From a virus: 22,734 nucleotides of DNA. The stretch lies in IMG/VR virus record IMGVR_UViG_3300033154_000392, positions 1 to 22,734 of that record; one strand, 5' to 3'. A program made the position numbers and the translations under genes. Below, one piece after another: positions 2 through 5,957 of the stretch. The stretch's first letter is position 1. Every line of letters starts with the position of its first letter. The notes under the pieces were generated by a model, which made no database searches, was not told the DNA's origin, and saw only the letters and a program-made list of their open reading frames with translations.

Positions 2-430
2 ACCTGTGGCAATGTGACCAAAGCCTGCGAGGACGCCGATATGAGCCGAGTCGGTGCCTACCGACGCAAGAACGATGATGAAGATCTCGCGAAGATCTGG
101 GACGAGGCAAAGGAAATAGGCGGCCAAGGTCTTGAAGATGAAGCACGTCGCCGGGCATACGAAGGTGTGCTAGAACCAAAGTTCCAGGATAAAGGGGTCA
201 CGACCGAATACGTCCGGAAATATAGTGACACCTTGCTGATATTCCTGCTGAAAGGTATCTTCCCGGAGAAGTATAAAGACCGCCAAACCACTGAACTGAG
301 CGGCGGTGTCAAGGTTGATCACGGTATTGACCTGAATAACCTCGATCCGGATGACCTCAGAGATCTCGAGAGGATACTCACCAAAGCCGCGCCAACGGAC
401 CAGATCGCAGATGAATCAGGAAAGTCGTAG
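2..430 (+). CDS. Terminase small subunit-like protein, 5' truncated
   Basis: The frame is open from base 2, so the true start probably lies before the window; the first usable internal start is GTG at 14. The extreme N-terminus (T-C-G-N-V-T-K-A-C from base 2, then S-R-V-G-A-Y) reads like the helix-turn-helix of phage small terminases and related DNA-binding proteins, where a GNVTKAC-type helix is followed by a recognition helix. The middle segment YSDTLLIFLLKGIFPEKYKDR, here split as YSDTLLIFLLKG and PEKYKDR, is a typical signature of such phage small-terminase-like proteins. In the family the protein recognises phage DNA and feeds it to the large terminase. It is unusual that the large terminase is not adjacent but about 1 kb downstream, after another DNA-binding gene. 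The family assignment is by eye; a small HTH regulator is the alternative. Confidence 0.62.
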   Translation, partial: TCGNVTKACEDADMSRVGAYRRKNDDEDLAKIWDEAKEIGGQGLEDEARRRAYEGVLEPKFQDKGVTTEYVRKYSDTLLIFLLKGIFPEKYKDRQTTELSGGVKVDHGIDLNNLDPDDLRDLERILTKAAPTDQIADESGKS

Positions 431-436
431 ATGCAC

Positions 437-457
437 CCCGGTACGGTTTCAACCGGG
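437..457. repeat. Inverted repeat just after the small-terminase gene
   Basis: CCCGGT (437-442) and ACCGGG (452-457) are perfect 6-bp arms. A nested alternative palindrome, CGGTT-TC-AACCG, lies at 444-455. No T-run follows, so this is not a clear intrinsic terminator. A TATAAT box occurs at 465-470 without a convincing -35 element. It could be an operator or a weak terminator. Confidence 0.4.
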
Positions 458-483
458 TCTCGTATATAATGCGGATTCAGGTC

Positions 484-511
484 AGTAATCTAAATAAGAA
501 TTACTTGTTTA
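484..511. repeat. AT-rich inverted repeats in intergenic island
   Basis: AGTAAT (484-489) pairs with ATTACT (500-505). An overlapping imperfect hairpin pairs TAAATAAG (491-498) with CTTGTTTA (504-511), matching at 7 of 8 positions. Bases 481-540 contain about 23% G+C by hand count, against well over 60% in the surrounding genes. Such islands commonly hold operators, promoters or melting regions; which of these applies cannot be decided here. Confidence 0.4.
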
Positions 512-539
512 TATTACCTACCATATTCTACATAATATA
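510..539. repeat. Inverted repeat upstream of the HTH gene
   Basis: TATATTA (510-516) and TAATATA (533-539) are perfect 7-bp arms separated by 16 bp. They lie about 28 bp before the GTG start of the following DNA-binding protein. The spacing would suit an operator at which that protein regulates itself, but this is inference. The region also contains promoter-like AT-rich hexamers without good spacing. Confidence 0.4.
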
Positions 540-566
540 CGACGCGTTCTATCAGAGGAGGATCTC

Positions 567-1283
567 GTGTCGTCTCGTACCCGGTTCGGCTACTGGCTCA
601 CGAACGCTGGTGCCGACCATCTCGCCATGATTGTGGAGGATCTGGAGGCCGTCCCCAACGCGGTCACGGTGCCTAGGATCGCTCGCATCATGCGGACCAC
701 GCCGTCGGTAGTGAGAAGAATCCTAGGTGCCGCCGACGTCCGCCCGGTCTCCGGGAGGATCTACTACTCGCCGCTCGCCGTCTCGGCCGTCATCAGGGGC
801 GTGCTCAACGATCGAGGTGACGAGCGGGCCACGACCATCCCCTCCGGTGGCGATCACGTTCTAGCTGCTCACAAGCGCTCCCATCACAGGCCGACCTATA
901 TCGAGCGGATAACCAGGGATCGCGCTGAGAGGATCGCGTCCACTGCCTCCCATTCCGGTCAGTGGCTCTCGTGCCGCGAGGCTGCCGGTCTGCTCGGGGT
1001 GACGACCCAGACACTCTTCAATTGGCGGTGCGCCAGGGATCGTGCGGTTGAGGCAGGTGAATCAATAGACCAGTGGCCGACATACTTCAGATCACCTCCC
1101 AGGACTGAGCGCTCAGACGACGAGACCAGACGGGGCTGGCAATCTAACCAGGTCGAGCACGTCCCGTCGTCAGCCAGGGATGAACTGACCGGTGACCAGG
1201 CAGTCAGGTCCTCCGGCAGGCACCCTCCGATCGTGTACGATAGGAATCTGCTGGTGGTCTGGATAAGGAAAGCCGTCAAGTGA
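567..1283 (+). CDS. Putative DNA-binding protein with two helix-turn-helix regions
   Basis: The 238-aa product starts at GTG 567, five bases after a strong AGGAGG (556-561). I do not recognise a named family. Residues about 35-75 (VTVPRIARIMRTTPSVVRR, then a GRIYYSPLAV stretch) look like a winged helix-turn-helix. Residues about 132-155 (WLSCREAAGLLGVTTQTLF, then NW) look like a second, excisionase/MerR-like helix-turn-helix, and a C-terminal segment (PIVYDRNLLVVWI) would close its wing. The linker is rich in Arg, His and Ser. The gene sits between the small- and large-terminase genes, with an AT-rich palindromic region upstream and a five-copy iteron array immediately downstream. It may bind the array, either for packaging-site recognition or for control of terL. 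A second small terminase, a replication-initiator-like protein or a late regulator are alternatives. Confidence 0.55.
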   Translation: MSSRTRFGYWLTNAGADHLAMIVEDLEAVPNAVTVPRIARIMRTTPSVVRRILGAADVRPVSGRIYYSPLAVSAVIRGVLNDRGDERATTIPSGGDHVLAAHKRSHHRPTYIERITRDRAERIASTASHSGQWLSCREAAGLLGVTTQTLFNWRCARDRAVEAGESIDQWPTYFRSPPRTERSDDETRRGWQSNQVEHVPSSARDELTGDQAVRSSGRHPPIVYDRNLLVVWIRKAVK

Positions 1284-1285
1284 CC

Positions 1286-1446
1286 GGACGGGATTCCCTT
1301 CTCAAGCTGCCCGGTACCCGAACGGGATTCCCTCCCTGGGCCGCCTGGTCGATGGACGGGATTCCCTCCCAGGCTCAGACGGGATTCCCTTCTCGGGCTC
1401 CCAGGTACCTGGACGGGATTCCCTTCCCAGGCGGATCGGTGATCCC
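1286..1446. repeat. Five-copy iteron array upstream of terL
   Basis: The 11-mer ACGGGATTCCC occurs perfectly five times, starting at 1288, 1322, 1356, 1379 and 1413. The start-to-start distances are 34, 34, 23 and 34 bp. The core GGGATTCCC is a 9-bp near-palindrome centred on one T. Spacers are related rather than random: those after copies 1 and 4 share a TTCTC start, a GCT and a GGTACC centre, and the latter contains the perfect palindrome CCAGGTACCTGG (1401-1412). Distances that differ by 11 bp keep all copies near the same helical face, as expected for cooperative protein binding. The array fills the whole gap between the HTH gene and terL. It could be a packaging initiation (pac/cos) region, an operator or an origin; too short and too regular in position for CRISPR. 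Confidence 0.85.
1433..1445. promoter_or_regulatory. Hairpin abutting the terL start
   Basis: GGATC (1433-1437) and GATCC (1441-1445) pair around a GGT loop, ending one base before the GTG start of terL at 1447. No good Shine-Dalgarno is visible in the usual window. A hairpin here could limit initiation of the large terminase, or simply be the last element of the iteron region. Confidence 0.35.
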
Positions 1447-4325: not shown

Positions 4326-4507
4326 GCAGTACGATCGCGGGAGCGCTGGAACTCATGACGATCTCCGGGGCCATGGCCTGTTGCTCCGGACGGTCAAGGG
4401 AGGATTGCCCGTACGAGGTGTTTTATTTCCCCACTGCATATGAGGCTTGGACTGAAGGCTGGGACCAGGCAGACATGATGCTCAGGACGGAGCCGGTCGG
4501 TGGCTAG
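4322..4507 (+). CDS. Rmf/CrpP-like small protein
   Basis: This 61-aa protein starts at TTG 4322, overlapping the portal stop, or at ATG 4355 (50 aa). The core SGRSREDCPY followed by AWTEGWDQA closely matches the E. coli ribosome modulation factor (as I recall it, GRSKEMCPY ... WLGGWREA), with the same spacing up to CPY and a 3-residue insertion afterwards. RMF dimerises stationary-phase 70S ribosomes; the wider Rmf/CrpP family includes small phage and plasmid proteins of uncertain role. A CC pair before the core is extra. The gene overlaps the next start by 8 nt, so the two are translationally coupled. It is not an expected structural part. It could act on host ribosomes, or it may be a diverged member that no longer binds them. 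Confidence 0.62.
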   Translation: MSSTIAGALELMTISGAMACCSGRSREDCPYEVFYFPTAYEAWTEGWDQADMMLRTEPVGG

Positions 4508-5957
4508 TCGATTCTCAAAGATAGGTAACCCGCCAAGGAACGCCCGTCTTGCTAACCAGGCGATCAAGGCAGCCAGTAAGAAGTTTGAGCCCTCTATAGC
4601 CAGGGCGTTCGCGAAGGCGATCGCGAGCGTCAAGGACGACCTCACCTTGCGACGTCTGACCGTTATGATCGAGCGCGGTGAATTGACACAGGCCCTGGAG
4701 CTCGTCGGTCAGACAATGACGTCGGCCCTGACAAGCGGTGTTCCGCACCCGGCGGCAAAGCGCGTAGTTCCGTCCGCATTCAACCTCTCATCGAAGACCG
4801 CGACCCTGGCCGCAGCTGAAGAACAGATGTACATTGCGTTGGAGGCTCTCTCGATTGGCCAGCCTGCCGCATATACGGAGGTCCAGCTATCGCTCCTCCA
4901 GGATATCATCAGCGACGCCAGGGCCGGAGGGAACTTCAAGTTCGTCGTTGATTCGCGAGGACGTATCGTGGGCGGTGCGTCCTGGAAGCCAGCTGGTCCA
5001 GGTCGCGTGGAACTACTCAACCTGTTTTCAACAAAGGGCCGCGTAGGATCCGGGCTCGTTGGCGAGGTGCTGCGTGAGAATCCCGGAGCGACGGTGGATC
5101 TATTGTCCGCCGGAAGGGCTCAAGGGTTCTATGAGCACCTTGGAGCTATTCCGACGGAGGGGGGCCGGTATGAGTTCAGGCCCGGGAAGATCCAGCACGA
5201 GATCACTGGGGCATTCAAGGCAGGCGCGGCGGCCGGCACGAAGCAACTCCCCCCTGATATCGCGCTGAGGGCGTCACTCGACCTGACGAATCCGGAGGCC
5301 CTCAGGTATCTGCGGACGCACATCCCGACCTTGATCCGTGAGGTAACGGACGAGACCATGAAGGCCATACAGTCGACGCTGGTTCGCGGGTTCAGCGAGG
5401 GAATCCCGCCGGTCAAGATGGCCCGGGAGATCCGGGGCGTCATCGGCCTCACGGAGAAGCAGGCGCAGGCGGTCGCGAACTTCCGCGAGCAGCTGGAGTC
5501 CGGCCGCATGGGCGTGGGACAGGCCCCCTGGGACCGCCGGCTCTCGGCGACCGAGCGCGCCCGAGCTGGACGCATCTTCAGGGCAGGCGGCAAGACTGGA
5601 CCCGACGTCGACGCGCTGGTGTCCAGGTATGAGCAGTCCCTGGTCAACAGGCGGGCCATGAACATCTCGGTGACCGAGACGAACACCGCGTTCGGCGAGG
5701 GGCAGGACGAGCTGTGGAGACAGGCCGAGGAACAGGGCCTGATCGACCCGACAAAGACTATGGAGCATTGGCTGTACACCAAGGACGAGCATACCAGGAA
5801 GGACCACAGACGGGTGCCGATTGATAACCCCGGCGGCGTGATGCTTGGTGGGTTCTTCAGGACGGTGGTCGGCCCTGTGAGGGGACCGCGTACGTCCGGG
5901 AATGCGTCGTTCGATATCAACTGCCGGTGCTCAAAGTACCTGGAGTTCTTAGAATGA
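4500..5957 (+). CDS. MuF-type minor head protein with inserted GNAT-like domain
   Basis: The 485-aa protein starts at GTG 4500 after GGACGGAG. Residues about 30-80 (IARAFAKAIASVKDD, ELTQALELV) and 235-485 are the split halves of a Mu gpF/SPP1 gp7-like head morphogenesis protein. The C-terminal part shows the standard TETNTAFGEGQ, the TKDEHTRKDHRRVP motif, and the closing NCRC cysteines (475-477). Between them, residues about 128-228 look like a GNAT acetyltransferase: FKFVVDSRGRIVGGAS (strands), ELLNLFSTKGRVGSGLVGEV with an R-V-G-S-G acetyl-CoA loop at 181-185, and the AQGFYEHLGAIP motif at 207-218. MuF proteins bind portal and can be carried in the virion; some are fused to toxins. The GNAT part has lower G+C than the rest (58% in 4801-4860 against 68% in 5581-5640, hand counts), suggesting acquisition. 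Confidence 0.82.
   Translation: MASRFSKIGNPPRNARLANQAIKAASKKFEPSIARAFAKAIASVKDDLTLRRLTVMIERGELTQALELVGQTMTSALTSGVPHPAAKRVVPSAFNLSSKTATLAAAEEQMYIALEALSIGQPAAYTEVQLSLLQDIISDARAGGNFKFVVDSRGRIVGGASWKPAGPGRVELLNLFSTKGRVGSGLVGEVLRENPGATVDLLSAGRAQGFYEHLGAIPTEGGRYEFRPGKIQHEITGAFKAGAAAGTKQLPPDIALRASLDLTNPEALRYLRTHIPTLIREVTDETMKAIQSTLVRGFSEGIPPVKMAREIRGVIGLTEKQAQAVANFREQLESGRMGVGQAPWDRRLSATERARAGRIFRAGGKTGPDVDALVSRYEQSLVNRRAMNISVTETNTAFGEGQDELWRQAEEQGLIDPTKTMEHWLYTKDEHTRKDHRRVPIDNPGGVMLGGFFRTVVGPVRGPRTSGNASFDINCRCSKYLEFLE

Follow-up and report, generated by a model that had tools for sequence, protein, structure and literature searches.

A two-box repeat array beside terL as a probable docking site for a phage protein of DNA packaging or terL control

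We found that the noncoding gap directly upstream of the large terminase gene of an uncultured tailed phage is filled by a row of five identical short words, and we propose that at this array a phage protein probably docks to initiate DNA packaging or to control terL. The array was analysed in a stretch of 22,734 nucleotides (positions 1 to 22,734 of IMG/VR virus record IMGVR_UViG_3300033154_000392, hereafter the window), whose first 2.9 kb carry the following features, with the strand given where one was assigned:

2..430, + strand: terS, small terminase subunit (phrog_4044, E 6.7e-25; phrog_309, E 6e-9)
437..457, + strand: GC-rich hairpin CCCGGT/ACCGGG in the fold of 431-566, after the terS stop and without a T-run
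460..542: AT-rich imperfect dyad, two 39-bp arms with 5 bp between them, 29/39 positions complementary
567..1283, + strand: orphan double-HTH protein of 238 aa (HTH_23, E 3.5e-5; HTH_29, E 3.4e-4; both under the Pfam cut-offs)
1287..1424, + strand: array of five A-boxes, perfect ACGGGATTCCCT copies, with unit 3 shorter by 11 bp
1313..1318: B-box 1, GGTACC core
1344..1355: B-box 2, degenerate CCTGGTCGATGG, offset from its own A-box as in unit 1
1401..1412: B-box 3, perfect palindrome CCAGGTACCTGG
1433..1445: possible degenerate final box GGATCGGTGATCC, 1 bp short of the terL start codon
1447..2901, + strand: terL, large terminase subunit (phrog_38, E 6.5e-71; PF17289, E 5.6e-8)

The A-boxes start at 1288, 1322, 1356, 1379 and 1413. 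A sequence-only reading of this DNA had described five exact ACGGGATTCCC copies spaced by 34/34/23/34 bp, and all the positions it gave are correct. The invariant core reaches one base beyond that 11-mer, to the 12-bp word ACGGGATTCCCT in 5/5 copies, an imperfect palindrome centred on GGGAtTCCC and identically oriented throughout. Across 200 dinucleotide-shuffled versions of the window, no 11-mer occurred more than twice per 200 bp, compared to the five copies observed, and ACGGGATTCCC has no further exact copy elsewhere in the window. As also described before, the HTH gene (stop at 1283) lies before the array and terL (GTG start at 1447) directly after it. The A-boxes span 125 bp of the 163-bp gap between these two genes, which the array as a whole occupies entirely, and no coding frame was found in the array region by codon score. 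The GTG start is backed by alignment with the TerL of the nearest relative, which starts alike.

The repeat unit is 34 bp long and combines the A-box with a second palindromic box (B-box) centred 27.5 bp from the A-box start. The B-box keeps an exact GGTACC core in units 1 and 4, is degenerate in unit 2 and missing in unit 3, while in unit 5 its place is occupied by GGATCGGTGATCC; an inverted A-box with 2 mismatches is found at 1438-1448. Of the palindromes previously seen in the spacers, CCAGGTACCTGG is present at 1401-1412. Since the A-boxes are identical and the rest of the full units is only 43-76% alike, sequence comparison suggests that the A-box has been kept by selection, beyond what recent duplication alone would leave.

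Where the sequence-only reading had all copies facing nearly the same way, we found no common face. At 10.5 bp per turn, as for ordinary B-DNA, the A-box centres lie at 0, 86, 171, 240 and 326 degrees, with a mean resultant of 0.10 (the probability of a random R at least this large being 0.96). Because 34 and 23 bp correspond to 3.24 and 2.19 turns, the sites rotate steadily round the helix, and the 11-bp difference in spacing only holds the rotation step roughly constant. The related inverted site reported inside the MuF gene (5399-5409) does exist, at chance level: GGGAWTCCC is expected 0.34 times in the window and was seen once outside the array, and no significant additional A-box-like site was found in the window.

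The nearest relative covering this region, L006 (67% identity for TerL, 73% for the portal and 77% for the capsid), has a counterpart of the array built on another word. Within the 182 bp before its terL, CTTAAG occurs five times (at 16, 37, 79, 121 and 145, in steps of 21, 42, 42 and 24 bp) and a second motif, CCARTCACACG, three times (at 52, 95 and 161), each time 15-16 bp past a CTTAAG. A palindromic 6-mer occurred at least 4 times in 0/5000 shuffles of this array region, and when the whole 6.9-kb contig was shuffled, some 6-mer appeared five times per 150 bp in 4/200 shuffles. Both arrays hold five A-boxes over a similar span (125 bp in the window, 129 bp in L006), the last box centre lying 28 and 35 bp, respectively, from the terL start codon; the contig of L006 starts 15 bp ahead of the first CTTAAG, so that its true copy number could be higher. 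In L006, 4/5 sites share one helical face (R 0.78, P 0.04). Thus, position, copy number and span are conserved, as the sequence-only reading had asked of relatives, but neither the word (ACGGGATTCCCT against CTTAAG) nor the spacing is, even though a promoter-like site between terL and the portal gene has kept its sequence in the two phages. This comparison covers two phages, the window and L006, with the position upstream, that of the HTH gene, lying outside the L006 contig. The word of L006 is not restricted to its array: CCTTAAGG lies within terL at 236, and CTTAAG follows at three positions further on. These extra copies (236-243, 1745, 4317 and 4437) are intragenic, read in frame as Leu-Lys and are at least partly expected from codon use. 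A coding-repeat origin of the L006 array was considered, given that the five CTTAAG share an open frame (1-186), and was rejected on a noncoding codon score; the second motif changes frame, which also speaks against a coding repeat.

Among 84 terL loci for which 150 bp or more of upstream sequence was available, a comparable array was found in two, the window and L006. Candidate arrays in L007 and L081 were rejected, their scores coming solely from GCGCGC or CGCGCG runs. The array is not general, as distant relatives with overlapping terS and terL have no room for it. When viral and genome collections were searched for closer relatives with the TerL, portal, capsid, TerS and HTH proteins and with a DNA pattern for the TerL P-loop, only L006 came back with the region. 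As these searches matched exact short patterns of peptide or DNA, relatives may have been missed. Another contig, L068, is about as close as L006 and starts in the portal gene. A scan of viral_contigs for paired A-boxes gave two matches, L016 and L017, both discarded as unrelated loci. The first is explained by dense GC-rich TTCCCACGGG-type repeats across 350 bp (1500-1860). The second is an unrelated contig that has at 2540-2650 a ACATTTCGGG...CCCGTACG repeat array with 24-31 bp spacing and a pentapeptide-repeat-like frame, with no recognised terminase gene in the 3 kb examined. In L051, a noncoding AT-rich stretch of about 260 bp before a portal gene (4480-4745) carries TTAAAA tracts about every 10 bp, resembling helically phased curved DNA.

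A row of short palindromes with a fixed geometry and an exchangeable word has the look of a protein-docking array. Palindromic boxes are also able to form hairpins in a 5' leader, and the repeats might then serve, within the terL mRNA, as a hairpin or an element of attenuation. We regard this as very improbable: fold energies are ordinary in both phages (z -1.23 in the window, -1.76 in L006), there is no Rfam match, and DNA palindromes whose word is changed in a relative suit protein binding better.

The terS gene, truncated at its 5' end by the window edge, encodes a protein that shares 35-41% identity with TerS proteins, annotated or putative, from cultured phages, and terL is followed by portal, MuF, protease, scaffold, capsid and tail genes. 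In four of the five annotated phages examined (L147-L150) terS and terL overlap; in RcRudolph, the fifth, they are separated by two small genes. In the window the two genes are 1,016 bp apart, separated by the orphan double-HTH gene, the 83-bp dyad and the array. The 29 matching positions of the dyad (460-542) were reached in 0/300 shuffles (maximum 22), its region has a DNA fold z of -2.9, and our promoter scan placed a weak sigma70-like site inside it (508-536). Lying between terS and the HTH gene, the dyad could be the operator or promoter region of the latter or part of a packaging site. The HTH protein, with motifs at about residues 27-53 and 133-156, has weak excisionase/MerR-like matches in PHROGs and no homologue in viral_contigs, phages or plasmids; it is our candidate for binding the array.

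The wide separation of the terminase genes, together with an orphan HTH gene, would also fit a mobile cassette (dyad, HTH gene and array) inserted between terS and terL, in which the repeats would be the cassette's own end or control sites, with no role for the terminase. This is unlikely, as an unrelated insertion would not explain an array at the same position and with the same span but another word in L006, and convincing terminal repeats around the cassette were not seen. Iteron-like repeats in the same orientation beside a DNA-binding protein gene, with an AT-rich dyad upstream of that gene, could instead mark an origin or a centromere-like site to which the double-HTH protein binds, situated in the terminase region by chance. 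Such a replication or partition element seems even less likely: the HTH protein has no Rep- or Par-type family match, no AT-rich unwinding region flanks the array (GC about 63%), and the array abuts terL in the window and L006 alike.

A more serious alternative is that the double-HTH protein, sitting on the five A-boxes, only represses or activates terL, thereby setting how much TerL is made or when, with no part in packaging, which we consider a realistic possibility. The array begins 3 bp past the stop of the HTH gene, fills the gap up to terL with a last degenerate box reaching the start codon, and thus adjoins the HTH gene and leads into terL alone. Quasi-palindromic repeats are typical dimer operators. 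The portal module is preceded by a promoter-like site of its own, located between terL and the portal gene (TTTACT-17-TATGAT, 2905-2933), with a sequence-conserved counterpart in L006 (TTTCCG-17-TATAAT, 1654-1682). Judged from its sequence, this conserved site suggests a separate transcript for the head genes, so that terL could be a transcription unit of its own. However, no sigma70-like promoter was recognised in the array of either phage by a scan that covers this promoter type only and is not very sensitive, since it also missed the conserved portal site of L006. Also, the A-box is absent from the region upstream of the HTH gene (431-566), which thus holds no autoregulatory copy. Multi-site repressor operators of phages have repeated binding words in the same orientation beside the gene of a DNA-binding protein; here, by contrast, all sites form one array, none lies upstream of the regulator and no promoter was recognised.

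Nonetheless, our leading reading is packaging recognition, because the array is located at the terminase genes, in the terS-terL interval, and resembles P1 pac, lambda cosB and SPP1 pac in size and multiplicity. We tentatively take it for a pac/cosB-like recognition site bound by TerS, by the double-HTH protein or by both. The role in packaging or terminase control that the sequence-only reading had suggested fits the noncoding location between terS and terL and the counterpart in L006, while its helical argument does not hold. Against packaging, the array lies behind another gene, 857 bp downstream of terS, and an operator array would look identical. An operator is nearly as good a reading, and both can hold together. 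The start of the L006 contig 15 bp before its array is, as a single case, only a hint of a genome end.

The packaging sites described for P1, lambda and SPP1 are located in or beside terS. P1 pac is a 161-bp sequence with seven TGATCA/G hexamers recognised by the terminase (PMC10028697), and the likeness lies in the length of about 160 bp and the seven copies of a short palindrome-like hexamer. P1 pac, however, lies inside pacA (terS) and its hexamers are Dam-methylated, whereas the array found here is intergenic, precedes terL and is made of ACGGGATTCCCT or CTTAAG, and so is not a pac of the P1 type with TGATCA/G hexamers within terS. Lambda cosB is 120 bp long with three TerS sites (PMC4669245); like our array it holds several copies of a word that varies among close relatives, for cosB lambda, 21 and N15, where the word is recognised by TerS (PMC4669245). 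It carries an IHF site and differs in adjoining cosN, in preceding the DNA-binding region of TerS and in its inverted R2, whereas the window has five quasi-palindromes in the same orientation after terS and no recognised cosN. A lambda-type arrangement, with a Nu1-family TerS and the array upstream of terS, was not found, and up to E 1 no Nu1 model in Pfam was matched by TerS or by the HTH protein. SPP1 pac has three sets of direct repeats, and SF6 lacks boxA and has a different repeat pair (PMC4737164); short direct-repeat sets, with a boxA that varies among relatives while the layout is kept, are thus shared with our array, but the SPP1 site overlaps the promoter and the start of terS, whereas our array precedes terL. 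The SPP1 TerS complex also lowers transcription of its operon (PMC4737164, PMC6316719). SPP1/SF6 and lambda/21/N15 are precedents for repeat words changing between relatives. A literature search for the same arrangement returned nothing specific.

The sequences show the repeats, their lack of coding, the arrangement in two boxes, the place between terS and terL and the counterpart with another word in L006; from these features we infer protein binding, the identity of the binder and a packaging role. The array would be a docking site of two alternating short palindromic boxes, on which TerS, the double-HTH protein or both would load. A compact nucleoprotein complex, covering about 12 turns of the helix, could then form and bring TerL into place to make the first cut on the concatemer, and the same complex may repress terL too, as at SPP1 pac.

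The way in which terminases recognise phage DNA remains under dispute: according to a recent review, the TerS of most phages binds pac weakly or unspecifically in vitro (PMC9611059). A clean five-copy, two-box array beside terL gives binding tests a well-defined substrate, and the complete replacement of its word in a relative with 67% identity, with copy number and span kept, gives them a natural specificity swap. It is conceivable, though rather unlikely, that these phages represent a lineage with a three-part packaging recognition module, in which TerS and TerL are joined by a dedicated double-HTH protein that reads a neighbouring fast-evolving array, packaging specificity then being set by pairs of protein and array that diverge between close phages. 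Even if the array were an operator only, it would still reveal that TerL is controlled separately.
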